DNA of 64,000 nt from Clostridiales bacterium. GTDB lineage: Bacteria > Bacillota > Clostridia > Oscillospirales > Ruminococcaceae. Position numbers and translations under genes: made by a program. The stretch lies in the NCBI GenBank assembly GCA_003150405.1, contig QAMM01000009.1, positions 99,731 to 163,730 on the forward strand, given 5' to 3'. Under the pieces are notes generated by a model that saw only the letters and a program-made list of their open reading frames with translations, was not told the origin of the DNA and did not search any database. Below, piece by piece: positions 5,850 to 33,215 of the stretch (within the stretch, counting starts at the first letter, position 1; every line of letters begins with the position of its first letter).

Positions 5850-7025
5850 TTAGCCGGCGGCGACAACGTACTGAAGCGGATTGGTCACAACGCCGTTGAC
5901 ACGCACTTCAAAATGACAGTGAACACCGTAGGAGTCTCCTGTATTACCGGCGTACGCAATAACATCGCCCTGGTTTACCGTCTGCCCGTACACGACATTC
6001 AGGCTGTTGTTGTGGGCATACACTGTGGAATATCCGCCGCCGTGGTCAATAATGACAATATTGCCGTAGGAGCTGCTGGTATTCGCACGGATAACCGTAC
6101 CGCCCTTTGATGCCCGTATAGGGGTGTTCAAGCCGCATGGAATGTCAATGCCCTTGTGAAACTGCTGTTTTCCATACAAATCACGCCAGCCGTAACCATC
6201 AGAAATACGGTAATGCCCACTGACCGGCCAGAGCCATCCGCCCGGCGACAGCGGTGTATCAGTGCTCTGGTTCTGTTTCAGCCACTCTTCAATTTCACGG
6301 TCGGCAGCCTCAAGGTCGGCCGCAATCTGGTCACGATCCTTCTGGGTCTTTTTCTCCAGTGCTTTCAGCTCGTCCAGCGTATCCTGAGACTGAGACAGTG
6401 CAGTGTTAAGCTCCTGGTTCTTGGCCATAACCTCTGCCTTGCTGGCCTCAATCTGCTGTTTTGAAGCCTCAATTTCAGCCTTATCGGCTTCAATCTGCTG
6501 TTTTTGTGCCGTCATTTCCTTAATGAGCTTATCGTCGTGATCCGCCACACGCTGGGTGGTTTCCGCCGCCGACAAAAACTCCGCAAAGGTCGAGCTGCCG
6601 AACAGCACGCTCAGCACCGTAGCGTCATCGGCCATATACATGGCGCGCAGGCGTTTTTTAAACAGATCGTAGTTTTCATCTATCCTTGCCTGCATTTCCT
6701 CAATTTCCTGGTTTTTCTGGCTGATCTGCCCTTCCAGCGTATTGATTTGGCTGCTGAGCACCGAAATCTGATTCTGAATGTTTTGAATTTGGTAGCTGAT
6801 CTGGGTCTGAACGGCTTTCTGATCGTCTACCTTTCCCTGAGCCTCTTTCAGCGCTTGATCAATCTTCTTTTTTTCTTCTTCCAGGCGTTTTTTTTCATCC
6901 ACCAGATCGTCATAACTGCTTGCCGCCTGTACCTGTGTTGACGGCGCCGACAGCAAACAGCCAAACGCAACGGCACACAGTACAAGAATGGCAATGAATT
7001 TTGACAAAACTTTGTTGCGAACCAC
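5850..7025 (-). CDS. Coiled-coil M23 peptidoglycan hydrolase (EnvC/PcsB-type FtsEX partner)
   Basis: Secreted 391-aa protein: signal peptide (about residues 1-35), long coiled coil (about 38-245) with near-heptad Gln/Glu/Lys/Ile repeats, and a C-terminal LytM/M23 domain (about 260-391). Metal ligands look intact: HKGID (His290, Asp294) and HCHFE (His369, His371), plus YAH (about His338), so it should be an active endopeptidase. In other Firmicutes the coiled coil of such proteins (PcsB, CwlO) binds FtsX and is activated by FtsE ATP hydrolysis. It lies 19 nt downstream of ftsX. Start is GTG at 7025 with AGGAGG 8 nt upstream. Confidence 0.92.
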   Translation of the reverse strand: MVRNKVLSKFIAILVLCAVAFGCLLSAPSTQVQAASSYDDLVDEKKRLEEEKKKIDQALKEAQGKVDDQKAVQTQISYQIQNIQNQISVLSSQINTLEGQISQKNQEIEEMQARIDENYDLFKKRLRAMYMADDATVLSVLFGSSTFAEFLSAAETTQRVADHDDKLIKEMTAQKQQIEADKAEIEASKQQIEASKAEVMAKNQELNTALSQSQDTLDELKALEKKTQKDRDQIAADLEAADREIEEWLKQNQSTDTPLSPGGWLWPVSGHYRISDGYGWRDLYGKQQFHKGIDIPCGLNTPIRASKGGTVIRANTSSSYGNIVIIDHGGGYSTVYAHNNSLNVVYGQTVNQGDVIAYAGNTGDSYGVHCHFEVRVNGVVTNPLQYVVAAG

Positions 7026-7044
7026 GGTTCCGTCCTCCTCGCTT

Positions 7045-7953
7045 TTACACTTTCAGGTGATTGCGTACACTAAAGGTACAACCAACCGTACCAACAATAA
7101 TCCCTGCCCCTAGGAAGCATCCAACCAATTCCCACGCAATCTGTTGGAACGGAATCACGCTGGACAGCAAATCCTGCAGCCACACCGAGGCATTGTCAAC
7201 CATATAGCTGAACAGGAGCTCATAAACACCCCAAATAAGGAAAAAGGCAAGTACAGCCGAAATTGTGCCAATCACTACACCCTCTACAAAGAAAGGAATT
7301 CGAATAAAGTTGTTGGTCGCTCCAACATATTTCATAATGTTGATTTCTTTTCTCCGGCTGAACACCGAAGCGCGGATGGTGTTCGCAATAATCACCAGCG
7401 ATACAACAACCAGCGCGGCAATCAAAATAATCGCAAAGACATTGATCATATCCTTGATGTTGGTAATGGTATCTGCAACATCGGTCGGCGCATTGATTTT
7501 CTCCTTGATTGGGTTGCTTTCAAATTCTGAAACAATTGCAGAAGTCTGAGAAAGGTCGACAATCTTGAAACGGAAGGAAGCCGGAACAGGATTTTCCTCT
7601 CCCTCTAATCCGTCCAACAGAACCGCATCCTCTCCCATCGTCCTTTTTAATCCTTCTAGCGCCTGCTCTTTGTTGACATATTCCACCTCAAACAGGCGGG
7701 AATCCGACTCAAGCGCTGCAAGGTTTGCCTGTATCTCCTCTTCCGAAGCATCGTCCCTGATGAAAAATACGACTTCATTCTGGTCGCCGATGGAGGTCAC
7801 CATACTGTTGATGTTCGCCGAAAGCAGCCAGGAAAAACCAATCAGCAGCAGACAGGTCGTCAGCACACCAATCGAAGCAAAGGACATCAGCCGGTTGAGC
7901 CATACGTTTTTGCCGCCTTCTTTAACGAGGTATTTGAAGCTGCTGGCTTTCAT
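7045..7953 (-). CDS. ftsX: Cell division ABC transporter permease FtsX
   Basis: 302-aa inner membrane protein with the FtsX topology: one N-terminal membrane helix (about residues 24-46), a large extracytoplasmic loop (about 47-170) and three C-terminal helices (about 172-195, 225-250, 272-292). It has the short cytoplasmic motif SRRKEINIMKYVGATN typical of the family. FtsEX transmits cytoplasmic ATP hydrolysis to an extracellular peptidoglycan hydrolase, here the coiled-coil M23 protein encoded next. The start ATG at 7953 lies inside the end of ftsE (32-nt overlap) with GGAGGGG just upstream, implying translational coupling. Confidence 0.95.
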   Translation of the reverse strand: MKASSFKYLVKEGGKNVWLNRLMSFASIGVLTTCLLLIGFSWLLSANINSMVTSIGDQNEVVFFIRDDASEEEIQANLAALESDSRLFEVEYVNKEQALEGLKRTMGEDAVLLDGLEGEENPVPASFRFKIVDLSQTSAIVSEFESNPIKEKINAPTDVADTITNIKDMINVFAIILIAALVVVSLVIIANTIRASVFSRRKEINIMKYVGATNNFIRIPFFVEGVVIGTISAVLAFFLIWGVYELLFSYMVDNASVWLQDLLSSVIPFQQIAWELVGCFLGAGIIVGTVGCTFSVRNHLKV

Positions 7954-8626
7954 TGTCCCCTCCTATATAATCATCAAAAATAATGCTGCCATTTTCAATC
8001 GTAATCGTCCTGCCGCCAAAATAACGCACCAGGTCGTGTTCATGGGTCACCATTAAAATAGTAGTTCCACATTTGTTAATTTCCCGCAGAAGCTCTACAA
8101 TTTCGTAAGAGAGTTCCGGGTCAATATTGCCGGTTGGCTCGTCCGCAATAATCAGCGGAGGGTCATTCACCAAAGCGCGCGCCAAAGCAACCCTCTGCTG
8201 TTCACCGCCGGAGAGTTCGTTTGGGTAGCTCTTTGCTTTATGTACCAGCCCCATCAGGTCAAGCACATACGGAACCTGGTTGCGGATAAACCGCTTAGAA
8301 GCGTCGGTCACCCGCAGGCTGAACGCAACATTATCAAAGACGTTCATGGTTGGAATCAAGCGGAAATCCTGGAACACTACACCAATCGAGCGGCGGAACC
8401 TTGGAATTTCCCGCTTCTTCAGCTTTTTCAGGTCGTAGCCATTGACAACAACAGACCCTTTGCTCGGAAGGGTTTCCCGCAGGATCAGCCGGAACATCGA
8501 GCTTTTTCCCGCGCCGGATGAACCCACAACAAAAGCAAACTCACCTGCATCAATATTCAGGTTGATGTCTTTCAGTACCGTATTGCCGTTGCCGTATGCA
8601 AACGAAACATCCTTAAAATTAATCAT
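7922..8626 (-). CDS. ftsE: Cell division ATP-binding protein FtsE
   Basis: 234-aa ABC ATPase partner of FtsX. Walker A GSSGAGKS, signature LSGGEQQR, Walker [12 protein letters not shown] and the switch His (MVTHEHD) are all present. The frame is open to GTG at 8638, but ATG at 8626 (MINFKDVSF) matches the usual FtsE start; the ribosome site is weak for either, so the start is uncertain by 4 codons. It is the first gene of the ftsE-ftsX-M23-S41 cluster. Confidence 0.95.
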
Positions 8627-8690
8627 AGACTGCACCACAATTCAAAAGAGTATCGATCCTTCATTCGTTCCACCGTCAAACGGCATCCGG

Positions 8691-9776
8691 TTAAAATTTA
8701 ACCGGATTCGAGGTCAGGTATTTCTTTACCATCAACGCAATTTTAAAGATGATGGCATGGTCAAACTCACGCAGATCAAGCCCGGTCAGCTTTTTAATCT
8801 TTTCCAGGCGGTAGACCAGCGTGTTTCTGTGTACAAACAGCTTTCTGGAGGTCTCAGACACATTCAGGTTGTTTTCAAAGAATTTCTGAATGGTAAACAA
8901 TGTCTCATAATCCAACGACTCAATCGAACCCCGCTTAAAGACTTCCTTTAAAAAGGTTTCGCAAAGGGTCGTCGGAAGCTGGTAAATCAAGCGGGCAATC
9001 CCCAGGTTGTCATAACTAACAATAGCCTTGTCGGTATCAAACACTTTTCCGACTTCAAGGGCAATCTGCGCCTCCTTAAAGGAATGCGCCAGATCTTTGA
9101 CCCCAACAACCGGCGTGCCAATACCCACAACCGCTTTGGTGTAAAATTCACTGGAGAGAGTGTCCACAATTGAACAAGCCAGCTTTTCCAAATCTTTGGA
9201 CTCAATGGTTGGTTTAATTTCCTTAATCAGCACAATTTCAGTTTCACTAATGTTGAAAACAAAATCCTTCTGTTTATCCGGAAAGAGGTTCTGAATTACA
9301 TCGTAGGCCGAAACATCATGCGACGAAGTAATACGGATTAGCAATGCAACGCGGCTGACATCGGTGTTAAAATGCAGCTCACGTGCCTTGACATAGATGT
9401 CACCCGGCAGGATGTTATCCAAAACAACATTTTTGATAAAGTTGTTGCGATCGTACTTTTCGTCATAATACTGCTTAATACTGGAAAGCGTCACCGCAAG
9501 AATCTGCGCGTATTTAGCAGCGGCATCGTCAATTCCCTCCACAAAAACCGCATAATCCGGTTTAATATGGGAACCAAACGGTTTATAGGTATAGCCGTCC
9601 CGGATGAAAACATCGTGCCCATCGGTAATATCCAGAGAAATATATTCATTGGTAATGCCTATTCTGGACAGTTCGCTGCATGCAATAACCGTCGCTTGGT
9701 CGTCTACTACACCGATCACGCGGTCAATGGTATCCCGCATTTGATGGACAATCCCTTGAAACAACCGATTCGACAT
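8691..9776 (-). CDS. PucR/CdaR-type transcriptional regulator
   Basis: 361-aa soluble protein. The C-terminal about 60 residues match the PucR helix-turn-helix (LNVSETSRKLFVHRNTLVYR, then LEKIKKLTGLDL); the middle part resembles the GGDEF-like region of the CdaR/PucR family, and the N-terminal region may sense a ligand. Members usually control catabolic genes for diacids, purines or amino acids. No obvious catabolic target lies next to it: ftsE is downstream and an orphan ABC ATPase upstream. Effector and targets unknown. Confidence 0.85.
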   Translation of the reverse strand: MSNRLFQGIVHQMRDTIDRVIGVVDDQATVIACSELSRIGITNEYISLDITDGHDVFIRDGYTYKPFGSHIKPDYAVFVEGIDDAAAKYAQILAVTLSSIKQYYDEKYDRNNFIKNVVLDNILPGDIYVKARELHFNTDVSRVALLIRITSSHDVSAYDVIQNLFPDKQKDFVFNISETEIVLIKEIKPTIESKDLEKLACSIVDTLSSEFYTKAVVGIGTPVVGVKDLAHSFKEAQIALEVGKVFDTDKAIVSYDNLGIARLIYQLPTTLCETFLKEVFKRGSIESLDYETLFTIQKFFENNLNVSETSRKLFVHRNTLVYRLEKIKKLTGLDLREFDHAIIFKIALMVKKYLTSNPVKF

Positions 9777-9921
9777 AATCTATCCCCTCTTATTTCTAAA
9801 AAATATTTACAGATCAAATTCTATTTTACATAAGTTTTTAACATTTTGCAACATATTGCGAAAAAATTCAGGGCTAATTTTGTAAATATTTCAAAACAAA
9901 ATACCAAACCGGCCGAATGTA

Positions 9922-9934
9922 TTACAAATTGTAA
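9922..9934. promoter_or_regulatory. Palindrome upstream of the PucR-type gene (possible operator)
   Basis: TTACAAATTGTAA is a perfect odd palindrome in an AT-rich 220-nt intergenic stretch, about 146 nt upstream of the regulator start. It could be a binding site, but short AT-rich palindromes also occur by chance. Confidence 0.25.
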
Positions 9935-9998
9935 CACATTTCAATTGGTCGATTGTTAATAAACTATGAAAAAGCAAATGCCAGATCATTCCAACAAA

Positions 9999-10027
9999 AA
10001 ACCGCTGCACATATTGTGCAGCGGTTT
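9999..10027 (-). terminator. Terminator after the sugar-ABC ATPase
   Basis: 12-bp perfect stem (9999-10010 with 10016-10027) 33 nt past the stop at 10061; on the minus strand it is followed by a run of T residues (TTTTTTG counting the stem end). Classical intrinsic terminator. Confidence 0.85.
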
Positions 10028-10060
10028 ATCCGTTTGGAGTTACACGAAATTATGGCAAAC

Positions 10061-11170
10061 TTAGTTACAAATGACCTGCTCGGTTTCTTTGTCAAAAATG
10101 TTGACACGGTTGAGGTCGATTGCAACCTGAATCTTGTCACCCGGACGAGCTTTGGTGCGGGATACGCGAGCAGTAATATTATTGCCTTCGCAATCCAGAT
10201 ACAGGTAGGTCTCAGCGCCCATCAACTCAACAACATCTACATTGGCTTCAACAACACCGTCGGTTACTGCGGAGAGGTACATCTCTTCGTCATGAATGCA
10301 TTCCGGACGGATACCGATGATAACTTCTTTGCCAACAGCAGCTTTAACAGCTTCGTTGTCTGCTTTTGCAGCCGGAAGCGGAATCTTATACTGGCCGAAT
10401 GCGAAGCAGATTTTGCCGCCTTCTTCAACAAGAGTAGCGTCGATGAAGTTCATCTGCGGAGAACCAATGAAGCCTGCAACGAAGACGTTGCACGGTTTGT
10501 CGTACAGGTTCTGCGGGGTATCAACCTGCTGAATGAAACCGTCTTTCATAACAACGATTCTGTCAGCCATGGTCATAGCCTCAGTCTGGTCATGAGTAAC
10601 GTAAATGAAGGTGGTGCCCAGACGATAATGCAGCTTGGTCAGCTCGGTACGCATCTGCGCACGAAGTTTTGCGTCCAAGTTGGAGAGCGGTTCGTCAAGG
10701 AGGAAGACCTTCGGGTCACGGACGATTGCACGGCCCAGCGCAACACGCTGTCTCTGACCACCGGAAAGAGCCTTCGGTTTACGGTCGAGCAGGTGAGAAA
10801 TATCGAGGATACGAGCAGCTTCTTCAACGCGGCGTTTGATCTCATCCTTCGGGGTTTTACGGAGTTTCAGACCGAATGCCATGTTGTCAAATACAGTCAT
10901 ATGCGGGTACAGAGCGTAGTTCTGGAAAACCATTGCAATATCGCGGTCTTTCGGAGCAACGTCGTTCATCAGGGTCTCGCCAATGTAGAGCTGACCACCA
11001 GTGATTTCTTCCAGACCTGCAATCATACGCAGCGTGGTGGATTTACCACAGCCGGAAGGGCCAACAAGTACTAAGAACTCCTTGTCTTCAATTTCCAGGT
11101 TAAAGTCAGAAACAGCCTGAACGCCGCCAGCATAAACTTTTTGAATATTGCGTAATGATACGTTTGCCAT
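10061..11170 (-). CDS. Orphan sugar ABC transporter ATPase, MsmK/UgpC family
   Basis: 369-aa ATPase: Walker A GPSGCGKS, signature LSGGQRQR, Walker [13 protein letters not shown], then a C-terminal TOBE/OB extension (about residues 240-369) as in MsmX, MsmK and UgpC. Such proteins energise carbohydrate importers from the cytoplasmic side. There is no permease or binding-protein gene beside it and it has its own terminator. By analogy with B. subtilis MsmX, where one ATPase serves several sugar transporters, it may be a shared subunit; that is inference. Start ATG has AGGAGG upstream. Confidence 0.92.
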
Positions 11171-27880: not shown

Positions 27881-28453
27881 TTATGAACGAAAAAGTGGCT
27901 GCAACTGCCGGTTTGCGAACGATCCTTCAATGGCTTCCGGCAGCAAATCAAACCGGGCAACCAGTGAATTGGGCTTTTTCTCTGGATTATCCTGCCGCAT
28001 AGGGACAAAGTAAAAATGCTTCATATTTAGCAGTGCACCCAGGTTTTTGGCGCTGCCGCTTAAAGCGTCGTTGGTTGAGACAGCAAGAAGCACCGGTTTG
28101 GCACCGCGCAGATGGGATTTCACAGCCATTGTCACGGGGGTATCCGTTATGCTGGACGCGAGCTTGGCAAGCGTATTCCCGGTACAGGGCGCCACCACCA
28201 GCAGGTCGAACATTCCTTTTGGGCCGATTGGTTCGGCATCCTGTATGGTTTGAATGACATGATGCCCGCAAATGCGCTCCAATTCCTCAATAAAATCGAG
28301 CGCCCGGCCGAATCGAGTGTCGAGCGTTGAGGCGTTATAGGACATAATCGGCGTAATATCGTAAGTATCGGTCAGTTTTTCAAGCTCATCAATGACCTCG
28401 CGAAAGGTGCAGAATGAACCGCAAAGTGCAAAACCCAGTTTCTTTTTACTCAT
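27881..28453 (-). CDS. dpaB: Dipicolinate synthase subunit B
   Basis: 190-aa flavoprotein of the HFCD family (SpoVFB). With DpaA it makes dipicolinic acid in the mother cell for the spore core. Family features: LGFALCGSFCTF at the N terminus and VVAPCTGNTLAKLASSITDTPVTMAVKSH. ATG at 28453 has GGGGTGG 6 nt upstream; it overlaps the TGA of the dpaA 3' segment as ATGA, the usual coupled arrangement. As the chromosome stands, dpaB is cut off from the dpaA promoter by the inserted element and its terminator. Confidence 0.95.
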   Translation of the reverse strand: MSKKKLGFALCGSFCTFREVIDELEKLTDTYDITPIMSYNASTLDTRFGRALDFIEELERICGHHVIQTIQDAEPIGPKGMFDLLVVAPCTGNTLAKLASSITDTPVTMAVKSHLRGAKPVLLAVSTNDALSGSAKNLGALLNMKHFYFVPMRQDNPEKKPNSLVARFDLLPEAIEGSFANRQLQPLFRS

Positions 28454-28596
28454 TGACAACCACCCCTTTCCGCCAAAATATTCTGAATGGTGTCACAAAT
28501 GATTTCCCCGGACGTAACCGGTGCGACCTTTCCCGGCAGCGACAGCGCCCAAATTACTTTAACACCCAGTTGTTTTGCCAGTTCAAAGTCCACCCC
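28450..28596 (-). pseudogene. dpaA: dpaA 3' segment (C-terminal 47 codons plus junction), separated by an inserted element
   Basis: This segment encodes VDFELAKQLGVKVIWALSLP and onward to the normal C terminus of dipicolinate synthase subunit A (including LPGKVAPVTSG), ending in a TGA that overlaps the dpaB start. It has no start codon or ribosome site of its own; the frame upstream of the GGG at 28594-28596 is element sequence. The coding frame is undamaged and continues exactly in phase from the 5' segment that ends at 32418. It is not a decayed relic but the second half of a split gene. A product would need removal of the 3.8-kb element. Confidence 0.9.
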
Positions 28597-28615
28597 CCAT
28601 AGCTTCGGGGATAAA
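28588..28615 (-). other. Attachment site at the dpaB-side end of the element
   Basis: Contains the start of the dpaA 3' part (GTGGAC, 28588-28593), the crossover GGG (28594-28596) and the element arm (28602-28615, minus-strand TTTATCCCCGAAGC). The arm is an inverted match of the one at the other end. Confidence 0.75.
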
Positions 28616-28652
28616 CTTCTCTGGCATACCGCACCGAAAAAAGTGGCTGCGG

Positions 28653-28683
28653 GCAAAAAAACACCCGGCAAATGCCGGGTGTT
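28653..28683 (-). terminator. Strong terminator after degV, inside the element
   Basis: 10-bp stem (28660-28669 with 28674-28683), 4-nt loop, then a run of seven T residues on the minus strand. It stops element transcripts before they reach the dpaA 3' part and dpaB. Confidence 0.88.
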
Positions 28684-28696
28684 TTTGTTTCGTTCT

Positions 28697-29563
28697 TTAC
28701 CGGTGTTTGCCCAGGAAGAAAAGGGCAACCGTTCCCGCGCCAGAGTGGGTACCAATAACCGGGCCAATGTAATCAATCCAGATATTCTGAATACCAAAGC
28801 GCTTTTTCACTTCATCCGCCACAAACTGGGCATCCTCCAGGCAATCGCCGTGGCTGATAAAGACAACATCGTTTTTCATCCCACCCATACAGGTTTCCAT
28901 ATTATCCACCAACGCCGTCAGAGACTGCTTGCGCCCGCGGATTTTCTGAATGGGGATTAACCGTCCTTCATCGTCAACATGCAGCACTGGCTTAACGCCG
29001 AGCATTGAACCGAACACCGCCGCCGTTTTGGATACACGGCCGCCCCGGTGCAGATGGAACAGGTCATCCACTGTGAAATTGTGGCAGATATTGAGCTTAT
29101 GGGCTTCCAGCCATTCAGCCGCTTCTTCCAGTGACTTCCCCTGCTTTTTAAGTTGCACCGCGTAATAAACGAACAGGCCCTCCCCCATTGACGCACATTT
29201 AGAGTCAATGGTTATAACCTTTGCATCGCCGTATTTGGCGTTGAGTTCCTCCGCCGCAATGACAGTGCTTTGGTAGCTTCCGCTGAGCGCGGAAGAAAAT
29301 GCGATGTGCAGTACACTGACGCCGCTTTTCAAAAAACGCTCAAACACTTTCTCAGCCTGATCGGGATTGACCTGCGCCGTCTGCGGCATGGAACCGCCGC
29401 GAAGCCGGTCGTAAAACTCTTTCGGCGGAAGAAAATCGCCTTCCAAACCCGTATAGGTTTTTCCATCAACGGTATAAGCCATTGACATAACGGTCAGTTC
29501 ATTTTCTTCTAAAAAGGCCTGCGGCATATCGCAGGTTGTATCGGTCGTAATGACATAACGCAT
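28697..29563 (-). CDS. DegV family fatty-acid-binding protein (element cargo)
   Basis: 288-aa DegV protein: N-terminal domain with ITTDTTCDMP, central FSSALSGSYQS, and C-terminal IGPVIGTHSGAGTV. Members bind long-chain fatty acids (as FakB) and hand them to a DAK-type kinase for phospholipid synthesis. ATG at 29563 has TGGGGAA upstream and starts the usual MRYVITTD; a TTG at 29578 is less likely. It lies inside the dpaA-intervening element, next to a lipid-acting patatin protein. No FakA-type kinase is seen in this window. Confidence 0.92.
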   Translation of the reverse strand: MRYVITTDTTCDMPQAFLEENELTVMSMAYTVDGKTYTGLEGDFLPPKEFYDRLRGGSMPQTAQVNPDQAEKVFERFLKSGVSVLHIAFSSALSGSYQSTVIAAEELNAKYGDAKVITIDSKCASMGEGLFVYYAVQLKKQGKSLEEAAEWLEAHKLNICHNFTVDDLFHLHRGGRVSKTAAVFGSMLGVKPVLHVDDEGRLIPIQKIRGRKQSLTALVDNMETCMGGMKNDVVFISHGDCLEDAQFVADEVKKRFGIQNIWIDYIGPVIGTHSGAGTVALFFLGKHR

Positions 29564-29596
29564 AAAATCGTTCCCCAATTCTTTGAATTTGCAATC

Positions 29597-29605
29597 ATTG
29601 TACCA
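29597..29605 (-). promoter_or_regulatory. Possible extended -10 promoter for degV
   Basis: TGGTACAAT on the minus strand, 34 nt before the degV ATG. No clear -35 is seen, but the TGn extension may compensate. Confidence 0.4.
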
Positions 29606-29640
29606 TAAACCATACAGAAAGAATAGCGGTTATATGAACT

Positions 29641-30957
29641 TTATTGAAATTTATCCGCATTTCCAAAGGCAGCCTCATAATAAATGGCACCCAGCAGCCA
29701 GCGCGGGAACATCAACGCTATGCTTTCCAGTTCCAGTGCTGAAAGCCGGCCAGCTCGGTAATCCGCTAATCGTTCACAGATGTAACGAAAAACCTCTGGC
29801 CGGCGCATCCGCCCAATGCGCTCAAATTTCTGTGCAGCAGTCAGGGCGGAGTCGGTAATGAGCCGGCGGATACGCCCTGGAAGCGGCGCCGTTTGCTCAT
29901 ATTTCTGCCTCAGCTGCCGATGGAAAGACTCATAGGAATAAATTTCATCTGTTTCCAGCTGCAACGCCTCCGCCGCATACTCCGCAGAGCGCAGAAGAGC
30001 GCGTTTCAAATTGGGTTTCCCATCCGAATCCAAATATTTACCGAGCGCATGCCGGACATGAGCCATCACCGCCACATGGTCAAACAGCATGAGCCTACCA
30101 TGATTTCCGGTAACATAGCACCGCATTCCGCGTACAAATTCTGCACTGTTATCCTGTATCATCCGCCGGACGGTACCACGCTCCAGGTGGTACTCTTCTC
30201 CTTCCAGCCGTTCAAATGCCTTCATAGCGTCCAGATAACCCCAGAGGATGTTCTTTCTGGTCTGGGCGGGATCAAAAACAAGGATAGGGCCAAGGGCGCT
30301 GCGCCGCTTGCGGCCGATGCGGGTGATCCGCACCTCCCGGTTGCGCACCGGTTTGACGAGGTTGATATCCTGCAGTTCAACCGCAATGATTTCTTCCGCC
30401 CCCATATCAACTGCAAGATTAATGGGGACGTTGTCAAAATAGCCGCCGTCCACATAGCGCCCATCATCAATTTTGCGAACTTGAAAAGCAGGGAAACAAG
30501 CCGCCGAAGCCATGAGGTAATCGCAGAGTTTTTCCGGCGGGATGTCTGCCTTTTTGAGCAGAACCGGACGAAAGCTCGGGTATTCCACCGTGACCAGTCC
30601 AAAATCAACCGGAGAAGCGTAGAACCGCTCCAGATCAATGACCTTTTTCAAGGTCTCTTCCAACGGTGCAACATCGGCGCCGCCGCGGAACACACTCTGT
30701 CTCAAAAAGGAAAAGACCTGCCCCGGGGCAAAAAAATTTTCCGGCGCTTCCGCCATCACCTGTTCCGGCGTGAGCTCCAGCCACATGTGTTCGGCTTTGT
30801 TGTAGTCGCCCTGTACCATCATCAAGCCGTTGAGGGAGCCAACCGAAGTCCCCGTAACAATTTGATAATCAAGCCCCAGCTCATTCATTGCCTTCCAAAC
30901 GCCAACCTCGTATCCTCCGCGCGAACCACCGCCCGAAAGCACCACTGCACGCTTCAT
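29641..30957 (-). CDS. Patatin-like phospholipase (element cargo)
   Basis: 438-aa protein with the full patatin set: oxyanion loop SGGGSRGG (about residues 8-15), nucleophile elbow GTSVGSLNG and the catalytic Asp in YVDGGYFDNVP. Such enzymes hydrolyse acyl esters of membrane lipids. The catalytic domain covers about residues 1-280; the C-terminal part is helical and unassigned. No signal peptide. ATG at 30957 has AGAGG 7 nt upstream; the frame extension to 30978 is less likely. It has a promoter inside the recombinase terminator. The pairing with a DegV fatty-acid-binding protein suggests lipid remodelling, which is inference. Confidence 0.92.
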   Translation of the reverse strand: MKRAVVLSGGGSRGGYEVGVWKAMNELGLDYQIVTGTSVGSLNGLMMVQGDYNKAEHMWLELTPEQVMAEAPENFFAPGQVFSFLRQSVFRGGADVAPLEETLKKVIDLERFYASPVDFGLVTVEYPSFRPVLLKKADIPPEKLCDYLMASAACFPAFQVRKIDDGRYVDGGYFDNVPINLAVDMGAEEIIAVELQDINLVKPVRNREVRITRIGRKRRSALGPILVFDPAQTRKNILWGYLDAMKAFERLEGEEYHLERGTVRRMIQDNSAEFVRGMRCYVTGNHGRLMLFDHVAVMAHVRHALGKYLDSDGKPNLKRALLRSAEYAAEALQLETDEIYSYESFHRQLRQKYEQTAPLPGRIRRLITDSALTAAQKFERIGRMRRPEVFRYICERLADYRAGRLSALELESIALMFPRWLLGAIYYEAAFGNADKFQ

Positions 30958-30995
30958 CTCCGCACCTCTTTTCCTCAAAAAAACATCTCTTTTAT

Positions 30996-31024
30996 ATTGT
31001 ACTAGAAAGCGGGCGGAAATTCAA
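30996..31024 (-). promoter_or_regulatory. Sigma-A promoter of the patatin gene, overlapping the recombinase terminator
   Basis: Minus-strand TTGAAT (31019-31024), 17-nt spacer, TACAAT (30996-31001). The -35 lies in the loop of the recombinase terminator and the spacer is its 3' arm. Confidence 0.6.
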
Positions 31025-31041
31025 ATCCGCCCGCTTTCTAG
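31002..31041 (-). terminator. Terminator of the serine recombinase gene
   Basis: Perfect 16-bp stem (31002-31017 with 31026-31041) that contains the recombinase stop codon in its loop. No long T tract follows, so it may act as an attenuating or RNA-stabilising hairpin rather than a full stop. Confidence 0.6.
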
Positions 31042-32244
31042 CCTACCCGTTAAAAACAGCTTTAATTCCTTGTTTTTCCCCACAAGAACTTTCCGGAACA
31101 ACTCTCCCGGTAGTTCCTTCCATCGATCCTGTATCCACGAAGAAGGCAATTTAAGGGCATGATTTTGCATTTCCTCCACAAGCCAGGCCGCCAATACCGC
31201 TTCCAGCTTTGGTTCACTGCAACAGTGGGAGGTGCATTCCCGCCCGCCGGAGTGTTTCCAGCGAGAACAGACAGCATAGCTGTAACTGCCGCGCCGGACA
31301 AAATCCATCCGCGCGCCGCAATCCCCGCAGAACAAAAGGCCGGACAAAACATGTTCCGCGCCGGAGGAATGTCTGGAACGGCGGGCGGCTATCCCCTGCG
31401 CCTCATCAAAAACCCGGCGCGGTACAATAGCCTCATGGGTATCCGGCACGGTAATCCATTCCCGGCGCGGAAGCATCCGCCGCTGTTTGATTTTATAGTT
31501 CACCTTGCGGGTCCGGTTTTGGGTGACGTTTCCCATATAGGTTGGATTTGTCAGGATTCGTTTGACGGTTGTATCGTTCCAGCCGCGGCCAGAGGCAGGC
31601 GGTGGAATTCCATTTGCATCCAGCCGACGTGCAATCCCTATGTAGGACTCCCCCTCCAAAAACCAACGGTAAATCTGACGCACCACCGCTGCCTGTTCCG
31701 GTCGGATTTCCAGGCGGTTCTTTTCATTGACCGCCTTTTGGTAGCCGTACGGCGGCGTCGCGCCAACAAACTCCCCGTTTTTCTTTTTGGATTGGAGCGC
31801 CGAAACAACCTTTTTGGAAATATCCTTTGCATAAAGATCGTTAAAAGCGGCGCGAAACAGTCCCATATCGTTGCCCGCAGTATCCGCTTCGGTGTCAATG
31901 GAGTCGTTGACCGCAATAAACCGCACACGATGGGCGGGAAAATACCGTTCAAAATAGTAGCCGGTATCAATATGATCCCGCCCCAGCCGTGACAGATCCT
32001 TGACCAACACTGTTCGTATGACTCCCCGCTCGATGTCTGCAATCATACGGCGGAACGCCGGGCGGTCAAAATTGGTGCCGGTGAAGCCGTCGTCGGCATA
32101 AATATCATATACCGCCATACCTTGCTCCTCCGCGTAACGCAGCAGGAACGCCCGCTGGTTGCCAATGCTCTGGGATTCACCGCCCTGGTCGCCATCCTCC
32201 CGCGACAGGCGCAGGTACAGCGCCGTATTCCCTTTGCCGTTCAC
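31021..32244 (-). CDS. Large serine recombinase of the dpaA-intervening element
   Basis: 407-aa site-specific recombinase. Resolvase domain (about residues 1-145) with the catalytic pattern YLRLSRED (Arg and Ser), DDGFTGTNFDRP and DLSRLGRDH; recombinase domain (about 160-270); zinc ribbon with CGDCG and a second Cys pair (CSRW...CTSHCC region); short C-terminal tail. All expected active-site residues are present. It is shorter than SpoIVCA of skin (about 500 aa). Start is GTG at 32244 with AAAGGAGG 9 nt upstream. It should cut and join the two sites flanking the element; whether it works only in sporulating cells cannot be read here. Confidence 0.93.
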   Translation of the reverse strand: MNGKGNTALYLRLSREDGDQGGESQSIGNQRAFLLRYAEEQGMAVYDIYADDGFTGTNFDRPAFRRMIADIERGVIRTVLVKDLSRLGRDHIDTGYYFERYFPAHRVRFIAVNDSIDTEADTAGNDMGLFRAAFNDLYAKDISKKVVSALQSKKKNGEFVGATPPYGYQKAVNEKNRLEIRPEQAAVVRQIYRWFLEGESYIGIARRLDANGIPPPASGRGWNDTTVKRILTNPTYMGNVTQNRTRKVNYKIKQRRMLPRREWITVPDTHEAIVPRRVFDEAQGIAARRSRHSSGAEHVLSGLLFCGDCGARMDFVRRGSYSYAVCSRWKHSGGRECTSHCCSEPKLEAVLAAWLVEEMQNHALKLPSSWIQDRWKELPGELFRKVLVGKNKELKLFLTGRLESGRI

Positions 32245-32353
32245 CGTCCGGTTCCTCCTTTGTCTCCTGCATCAACAGGCGTTTCACAATCTCCTTTAGA
32301 GAAGGACCTGTTTCATCCGGGATTACCTGTACGACCTTTGGTGCAGTTCGCAT
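32177..32353 (-). CDS. Small ORF overlapping the recombinase start, 58 aa
   Basis: ATG at 32353 has GGGGGAAG at a good distance and opens a 58-codon frame beginning MRTAPKVVQVIPDETG, with a helix KEIVKRLLMQE. It overlaps the recombinase by 68 nt in another frame and lies between the recombination site and the recombinase gene. The position would suit a leader peptide or a recombination directionality factor, but I recognise no family. The last 20 or so residues lie in recombinase sequence and may be chance coding. Confidence 0.4.
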   Translation of the reverse strand: MRTAPKVVQVIPDETGPSLKEIVKRLLMQETKEEPDGERQREYGAVPAPVAGGWRPGR

Positions 32354-33158
32354 TTGCGCTTCCCCCTTCCATTTTCATGGATATGCGGAAGCGCCCGGTT
32401 TTATCCCCGCAGCCAGACCCGCCCGGTTTGGAGGCAAGATCCAAAATCAGGCAATGATCCCGGAGTTTTGATAAAACGGCGTAGTCAAACAGCTTAACAG
32501 GCACCGTATTGATGATGTAATCAAATTCACCGGCATATTCAGACATTTGGCTGATATGTATTCCGCAGCCGCCATAAATTTTAGCCCATGCCAAATCGGA
32601 ATACTTGCGCGCTGCTACGGTTACGTCCGCTCCCAGCACTGTTAAATATTTAATCAAAACCTTTGAAATTCTTCCGAAGCCAGTCAGTAGGCATTTTGTG
32701 CCAAATAGTGTCGTAGGAAGTTCCTGCATCAGAAGCTCCAGAGCTCCTTCAGCAGTCGGTACCGCGTTAAGCACCGCCATCTCTTCCCGCTCCAGGTAAT
32801 CGGCTGCTTCCAGGCCGCGATCTTTGCAGGCGGCATAAAAACCGGACTCGATTTTTCCGCCGAAAATCATGGTGCGCCGTCCCGCCAGAGCAAGAACGTC
32901 ATCCAGCAGCAGCTCACGGTGGGACAACGGCGTATTGACGGTAAACCCGTCGTTTGTCACAGGAAGCGGCAGGATAATGCAGTCTAGCGGCTCGCCAACC
33001 TCTGCCGGCGATTCGACTGGAATCAGGTGTTTGTCGAGTTCAAATGCCTTGTCAAAGCAGGTGATATACACCTTATTTCCCTGCCGGGCAAGCGCCTTTG
33101 CCAGATAAAGCTGGCGCAGGTCTCCCCCAGCAACCAGGTATGTTTTATCTATCTTCAT
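32313..33158 (-). CDS. dpaA: dpaA 5' segment: dipicolinate synthase subunit A, residues 1-247, then element-derived tail
   Basis: DpaA (SpoVFA) with DpaB oxidises/cyclises the product of DapA to dipicolinate. The segment starts MKIDKTYLVAGGD and contains the Rossmann motif LLTGFGRISKVL and the end motif LILDLASKPGG. True dpaA sequence stops at 32418; the frame then runs 34 codons into the element before a stop at 32313, so an unexcised locus would give a 281-aa protein lacking the last 47 residues (including LPGKVAP). ATG at 33158 has GGGGGT upstream. A sigma-K-like promoter lies 29 nt before it. No frameshift or internal stop is seen. Confidence 0.93.
   Translation of the reverse strand: MKIDKTYLVAGGDLRQLYLAKALARQGNKVYITCFDKAFELDKHLIPVESPAEVGEPLDCIILPLPVTNDGFTVNTPLSHRELLLDDVLALAGRRTMIFGGKIESGFYAACKDRGLEAADYLEREEMAVLNAVPTAEGALELLMQELPTTLFGTKCLLTGFGRISKVLIKYLTVLGADVTVAARKYSDLAWAKIYGGCGIHISQMSEYAGEFDYIINTVPVKLFDYAVLSKLRDHCLILDLASKPGGSGCGDKTGRFRISMKMEGGSANANCTKGRTGNPG
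32400..32429 (-). other. Attachment site at the dpaA-5' end of the element
   Basis: Contains the end of the dpaA 5' part (AAACCGGGC, 32421-32429), the crossover GGG (32418-32420) and the element arm (32400-32413, minus-strand GCTGCGGGGATAAA). Joined with the other inner end, the arms are separated by 12 nt whose middle two bases are the first GG of the shared GGG, the pattern expected for a serine-recombinase attP. Confidence 0.75.
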
Positions 33159-33186: not shown

Positions 33187-33215
33187 TATCCTATGAGGGC
33201 CATTCCCATTCGGTT
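33187..33215 (-). promoter_or_regulatory. Sigma-K-like promoter of dpaA
   Basis: Minus strand AACC (33212-33215), 16-nt spacer, CATAGGATA (33187-33195), which fits the sigma-K pattern (AC at -35, CATANNNTA at -10), ending 28 nt before the dpaA ATG. The dpa operon is sigma-K controlled in B. subtilis. Confidence 0.6.

Follow-up and report, generated by a model that had tools for sequence, protein, structure and literature searches.

The window analysed here, a 64,000 nt stretch of contig QAMM01000009.1 from a Clostridiales bacterium, contains the spore dipicolinate gene dpaA in two pieces, separated by an element that encodes a large serine recombinase. This raises the question of whether the pieces belong to one gene that excision of the element can restore. 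All window features given with coordinates lie on the reverse strand. The 5′ piece (32418..33158) consists of 247 codons, ends in the residues ASKPGG and matches PRK08306, the DpaA profile. The 3′ piece (28450..28593) begins VDFELAK and comprises 47 codons and a TGA, which overlaps the ATG of dpaB (spoVFB; 27881..28453, profile match), the second gene of the operon. On the 297 positions of PRK08306 the pieces cover 4-248 and 249-291 and so abut, with no residue missing or doubled. The gap between them is 3,824 nt, the split falls after codon 247 (ASKPGG/VDF), and removal of the element gives a 294-codon DpaA in frame. The frame of the 5′ piece stays open for 34 codons inside the element, its stop codon ending at 32313, and the open reading frame (ORF) that contains the 3′ piece opens 68 codons upstream, within element sequence, so that the 3′ piece begins mid-frame. 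A first-pass annotation of this DNA had described these pieces, with coordinates that all proved correct on re-checking, and had predicted a clean split and a 294-codon rejoined product; the abutting profile positions and a protein identical to that product (P0121, below) bear this out. The dpa (spoVF) operon is used in the mother cell. Upstream of dpaA lies spoIIP, and genes that we take from their sequence to be gpr-like and spoIIE-like are nearby. Scanning the window for Rfam families and tRNAs gave no matches.

Does the joined gene exist anywhere? A protein search with the dpaA 5′ piece alone returned P0121, a protein of 294 aa encoded on a 12,561 nt contig (source code lgn, presumably Logan), which is identical to the predicted joined DpaA of the window at 294/294 residues. 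An uninterrupted allele of this dpaA is thus present in a public assembly. The same search returned P0122, whose first 247 residues are also identical and whose tail is different. Of the nearest proteins, 120 were listed: 15 end shortly past ASKPGG, 6 end shortly past a second motif, ALSLP, and 99 (P0228 among them) are full length; these classes were assigned by eye, and some of the short proteins may be cut by contig ends. Two truncated DpaA proteins, P0123 and P0130, come from contigs of 9,531 and 22,126 nt, the same lengths as the contigs of the window-like recombinases P0002 and P0005 respectively, and each pair may lie together. As an empty-site test, genome contigs were scanned with the 5′ piece, giving 47 loci, the best of them 45% identical. 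In 44/47 the 3′ part adjoins the 5′ part at the same codon boundary. In the other three the match ends at codon 136-149. The remainder of dpaA follows, 14 kb downstream, on that contig in Eubacteriales bacterium A05DMB11 (JANLFN010000001.1), lies on a different contig in Ruminiclostridium sp. MnB_11, and was not found in UBA4821. The first-pass annotation had proposed looking among relatives for uninterrupted dpaA and for the same insertion point; both are there, the latter in genomes G507, G339, G149, G568 and others, in which the codon is reused.

An orthologous split is present in G507, where dpaA is cut at the same codon and the genes of the element stand in the window's order. Identity between the window and G507 is 77% for the dpaA 5′ piece, 94% (44/47) for the 3′ piece and 81% for dpaB, and within the element 62% for the recombinase, 59% for a patatin gene and 81% for a degV gene. 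The 5′ half has a nonsynonymous divergence (dN) of 0.18, with synonymous divergence (dS) saturated, and the 3′ half a dN of 0.034-0.036, with dS ~1.9 by YN00 and saturated by NG86. For dpaB, dN is 0.12-0.13 and dS 1.7-2.5, and dN reaches 0.31 in the recombinase and 0.37 in the patatin. Both halves of dpaA are therefore constrained about as strongly as their operon partner, i.e. they are under purifying selection, as the first-pass annotation had supposed from their undamaged state. Since both halves are intact and constrained, the joined gene is predicted to be used. A second dpaA, looked for in G507, is absent from that genome.

The window is not a lone case. Genomes were drawn evenly from three taxa and searched with the DpaA profile, dpaA-bearing genomes being those with listed matches below 1e-12, counted by hand; a few genomes belong to more than one sample. 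In the family of G149, 12 of 123 dpaA-bearing genomes (150 sampled) have a split gene, and in 9 of these two pieces share a contig. The family of G339 yielded 7 splits, 5 on one contig, in 111 of 148 genomes that carry dpaA. In the class of G010 (157 genomes, 96 with dpaA) there were four splits with good joins, on one contig in G728 and G753 and across two in G700 and G730, and two doubtful ones (G757 and G705). These counts include G577, G616 and G415, which lack one end or have it at the edge of a contig, and omit G801, which shows a 3′ piece only. An earlier search of 394 genomes with the 5′ piece, from which 30 loci were taken, had contained two splits (G339 and G149). The insertions fall at four codons: site A (ANAVPT/AEGA, codon ~134), site D (~194), site B (ASKPGG/VDF, 247, as in the window) and site C (ALSLP/GKVAP, 267). 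Elements range from 2.7 to ~43 kb. Four genomes (G640, G604, G570 and G497) carry two insertions in one dpaA. In G640 (C1:903000-930000; L090, L091) the three pieces are on one contig, with 2.7 kb inserted at A and 17.4 kb at B, and in the other three the twice-split gene is spread over several contigs. In G497 (L083, L084) the split at ~194 has its pieces on two contigs, an insert of at least ~89 kb if these are joined, and the split at 247 is filled by a 5.65 kb stretch without a recognised recombinase. A clear best join that restores the DpaA profile in frame was obtained for 20/20 junctions of the first set and 4/6 of the second. The best of many in-frame candidate joins was taken in each case, and an in-frame state alone is weak evidence; we therefore place weight on the longer cores, the shared codons, the terminal repeats and P0121. 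Cores are 2 to 20 nt long, and 6/26 junctions have a core of only 2 nt (G497B, G640A, G172, G497D, G757 and G705), joins that are not placed to the exact base. Taken together, dpaA has been hit repeatedly, at four codons.

A closer look at the ends of the window element (28594..32420, 3,827 nt counting a single copy of the core) showed that both dpaA pieces share GGG at the junction. The inner half-site of attL (32400..32420) consists of the GGG core at 32420-32418 followed by the arm GCTGCGGGGATAAA at 32413-32400, and that of attR (28594..28615) of the arm TTTATCCCCGAAGC at 28615-28602 followed by the core at 28596-28594. When the inner ends are joined as in a circle, GCTTCGGGGATAAA and GCTGCGGGGATAAA form an attP-like inverted repeat of 14 nt with 1 mismatch, at the same spacing from GGG (p = 0.001 against random pairs). 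An inverted repeat flanking the core is the usual appearance of a serine-recombinase attP, according to PMC5595907. With a local score allowing a wider offset, 24 junctions were compared with 24,000 random pairs; p<0.01 was reached in 12/24 and p<0.05 in 13/24 (combined p = 9e-25). Arms of 22-28 nt with few mismatches occur at G149, G570B, G545, G700, G640B and G183, and no notable arms were seen at the G604B, G640A, G172, G728, G730, G410, G497D and G568 junctions. This score superseded a narrow-offset one, which gave p<0.01 in 7/24 and a mean of 13.5/27 for own pairs, 10.0 for random and 10.8 for cross-element pairs; both scores start the arms mid-core, so that part of a long core contributes to the score.

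Following the dpaA 5′ piece, and on its strand, the window element carries in order: a 58-aa ORF (32177..32353), which overlaps the start of the recombinase and has no Pfam match; the recombinase itself (31021..32244, 407 aa; domains Resolvase, Recombinase and Zn_ribbon); and, as cargo, a patatin-like phospholipase (29641..30957, 438 aa from its ATG) and a DegV family protein (28697..29563, 288 aa from its ATG). A terminator-like hairpin (28657..28686) lies 3′ of degV within the element. Among four element proteins scanned against PHROGs there was no phage structural, packaging or lysis gene, the recombinase matching integrase-type groups and DegV one group of unknown function. Pfam and NCBIfam searches of the element's four larger ORFs found no relaxase or conjugation gene. 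XisF of the fdxN element is a distant match to the recombinase. Viral-contig scans with P0121 and the recombinase found no relatives, and hence no excised circles. The patatin was considered as a defence gene and rejected: it alone of three element proteins scanned matched PADLOC, weakly, and its matches to phospholipases of the cyclic-oligonucleotide-based anti-phage signalling type were below cut-off. Patatin and DegV (FakB-like) could form a pair for lipid release and fatty-acid binding.

Serine recombinases are present in 16/17 fully assembled elements (14/15 of the first set, plus G728 and G753), and none was found in the incomplete elements of G557, G410 and G497D. A 52-row tree placed the 8 site B recombinases and the 7 from site A (two of the latter from G172) each on one side of a branch, with support of 99/97 and 100/99; the background consists only of relatives of the window recombinase, mostly with unknown insertion sites, three fragments (the left one of G065 and two of G424) were omitted, and G524 and G339 carry a long-branch warning. 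Two genomes found later agree with this: the recombinase of G728 (site B) is nearest to the B set and that of G753 (site A) to the A set. On these sequences, recombinases cluster by insertion site. Moreover, by eye, an ORF of 40-58 aa with a V...GP.LEELL..L-like pattern precedes all 8 site B recombinases, and most site A recombinases are preceded by another, different small ORF. Leave-one-out profiles ranked the small ORF first in 6/8 site B elements (third in G507, not found in G339) and in 4/4 site A elements tried, with G065 reaching only E = 0.4 and G172 not tried. In G753, which was not used in building the profiles, the small ORF was recovered at 3e-6 immediately before the recombinase; in G728 a match lies at the expected place at 0.1 only, and in G183, G557 and G410 the profiles found nothing. 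Pfam searches of ten such ORFs gave three sub-cut-off matches, the best, to UPF0175 at 0.0015, coming from one of the site A ORFs. The 58-aa ORF of the window is perhaps a recombination directionality factor.

Upstream of dpaA, a pattern match to the sigma-K consensus, AC-N17-CATAGGATA (33187..33214), marks a putative promoter that is conserved in G507; the pattern is expected 0.015 times per 250 nt. In the elements of the window, G507, G339, G568, G604 (both), G183 and, at a distance of 440 nt, G640B, the dpaA 5′ piece is followed first by the recombinase in the same orientation, an arrangement in which the dpaA promoter could drive the recombinase.

Other genes were examined in the 150-genome family sample that gave 12/123 dpaA splits. 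The forespore gene gpr showed no clear element-like split in 117 genomes that carry it; three matches were broken (G642, G628 and G597), the first two with one piece at a contig end. No split of gltX was seen in 149 genomes with the gene, among the matches listed (to 234 bits); this limit and partial matches such as those of G550, G571, G624, G641 and G569 make it the weaker control. The mother-cell gene spoIVA was split at one codon in 3/125 genomes (L120-L125), matches that break off where a contig ends (G564, G610 and G551 among them) being left out of the count. Its pieces are 30.7 kb apart on one contig in G604 (C2) and on two contigs in G560 (C9/C10) and G648 (C195/C241), and they rejoin in frame at ASAPSIH/MIRADIETEV or close by, with cores of 5-8 nt. 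The difference between dpaA and gpr is significant by Fisher's test (p = 4e-4), with genomes that are not independent. This pattern fits the loss of an element only in a cell that dies; the contrast is modest.

The cargo seen in these elements is metabolic and varied. That of G149 includes thiF, thiH and a thiE/tenI-like gene, and that of G339 sugar ATP-binding cassette (ABC) transporter and transketolase-like genes, below the cut-offs of their models. Capsule-type genes were found in G570, glycerate kinase in G640, a solute-binding ABC transporter in G753, MatE and HGD-D genes in G183 and glmS in G728. The last (L108:4050-5876; C183:8052-9872) is the sole glmS match above the family cut-off in that genome, which shows no other full-length copy, and lies inside the element (C183 ~6016-10190); the genome is a draft, and another copy may be missing from the assembly.

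Elements of this kind are already known. The excision targets named in the literature searched are sigK, spsM, spoVFB, spoVR, gerE, yabG and kamA. The nearest by target is vfbin, which is excised from spoVFB (dpaB) of Bacillus weihenstephanensis in sporulation (PMC10747680, PMC6957869, PMC5025042). Like the window element it intervenes in the dipicolinate synthase operon, but in the gene of the other subunit and in another bacterial class, and it is called prophage-like. The gin element in gerE of Bacillus cereus ATCC10987 is, like ours, non-phage, with a serine recombinase (GirC) and an att-site inverted repeat; it also has a 42-aa directionality factor, GirX, without a conserved motif, and differs in its target and in having three recombinase genes (PMC5595907). 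In skin (sigK; B. subtilis and C. difficile), a large serine recombinase and a directionality factor rejoin the ORF by excision in sporulation, but the content is prophage-like and the target a sigma factor gene (PMC5025042). A sporulation gene is likewise split and rejoined by yin in yabG, which is prophage-like (PMC10747680), and by the prophage SPbeta in spsM (PMC4191935), both with other targets, and the cyanobacterial nifD, fdxN and hupL elements rejoin genes by excision in a differentiating cell (PMC6957869). With skin, vfbin, gin and yin the window element shares an interrupted mother-cell gene, a large serine recombinase, a short core with an inverted repeat, and lossless in-frame rejoining on removal. 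In open-licence literature, covered mostly as titles and the starts of abstracts, no report was found of dpaA (spoVFA) or spoIVA as a target. New here are the dpaA target, its four codons with site-clustered recombinases, the three-piece genes and the metabolic cargo, including an apparently sole glmS.

We conclude, at a probability of about 0.86, that the window holds a non-phage, recombinase-inserted element that is excised in the mother cell to rejoin the dpaA-dpaB operon. The first-pass annotation had called it a skin-like excisable element; this reading is supported and is the best one, with gin a nearer model than skin, as the element shows no phage structural genes. From sequence we infer excision with its timing and cell type, a role for the small ORF and a promoter logic, as follows. 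A large serine recombinase would have inserted the element into a highly conserved dpaA motif. Vegetative cells and spores would keep it, making no complete DpaA and needing none. Excision would take place in the mother cell, where the recombinase, assisted by a directionality factor (perhaps the 58-aa ORF), would recombine attL with attR at the GGG core. The element would depart as a 3.8 kb circle, and the rejoined dpaA-dpaB would allow dipicolinate synthase to be produced. The element would stay in the germ line, since the mother cell dies. The sigma-K-like promoter of dpaA could itself drive the recombinase, which would make the switch self-triggering. Several observations weigh against this account. 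P0121 may come from a strain that never carried the element, the window core is only 3 nt, and 11/24 junctions lack an inverted repeat at p<0.05. No recombinase was found in G497B, and that at site C of G424 (L086) is frameshifted into two overlapping frames, by decay or sequencing error. Only three of 16 loci tested (the window, G507 and G497) have the sigma-K-like site before dpaA, and the recombinase lies elsewhere or on the opposite strand in G149, G570, G640A, G065, G172, G545, G524 and G424. The contrast with gpr falls to p = 0.03 if its three broken matches are counted as splits, and further to p = 0.14 if the dpaA count is also restricted to splits within one contig. Lastly, the 3′ dpaA piece of G757 (L112, L113) has an in-frame TAG and is possibly a decayed case.

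A rival reading is that of ordinary site-specific islands that use the dpaA motif as attB and excise rarely, with no developmental control and with dipicolinate synthesis lost or occasional. Integrases often target conserved motifs, the cargo is of the varied, metabolic kind, and no sporulation-type promoter pattern was found before most of seven recombinases tested. Against such islands stand two halves that are intact and constrained in both the window and G507, and splits in the mother-cell genes dpaA and spoIVA beside a forespore gpr with no clear split in 117 genomes, and we regard them as improbable. It is more improbable still that insertion is one-way and dpaA dead in its carriers, as lineages that are losing sporulation. 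The stop in G757 would suit this, as would G570 and G415, which show no spoIVA match in drafts of 1.7 and 1.1 Mb; against it stand the purifying selection on the halves, spoIVA in 17/19 genomes with split dpaA, spoIIP beside the window dpaA and the joined allele P0121. The first-pass annotation had named decayed 3′ fragments in relatives as a sign to look for, and among the 3′ pieces listed G757 alone has an in-frame stop. Conserved, open pieces could also mean a split enzyme, the parts being translated separately and complementing each other. This we consider the least probable: the 3′ piece begins mid-frame, in an ORF that opens in the element, the insertion codons vary among genomes, and a twice-split gene would require three working parts.

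Excision of the element in the mother cell, if it occurs as proposed, would add dpaA to the few genes known to be rebuilt by DNA excision. At 4 to 10% of dpaA-bearing genomes in the three samples, the splits suggest that rebuilding of this kind is no rarity among uncultured Clostridia. A split dpaA would be annotated as truncated, and the sporulation ability of genomes from metagenomes may therefore be misjudged. The set also offers several recombinase-site-factor trios for the study of directionality control. A broader view, to which we give somewhat less than even odds, sees dpaA as a standing dock at which excisable islands settle throughout the Clostridia. Several recombinase lineages, some with a micro-ORF factor of their own, would each use a single conserved dpaA codon and bring along exchangeable, ordinary metabolic cargo, in G728 apparently the only glmS of the cell. 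The glmS of G728 raises the idea of an element that is required in one cell type and has to be absent from the other. If the dock view is true, the element must be present for vegetative life and gone for dipicolinate to be synthesised, and terminal differentiation of the mother cell includes a programmed disposal of vegetative genes. Host and element would be bound to each other by this double requirement, which would also explain the three-piece genes.

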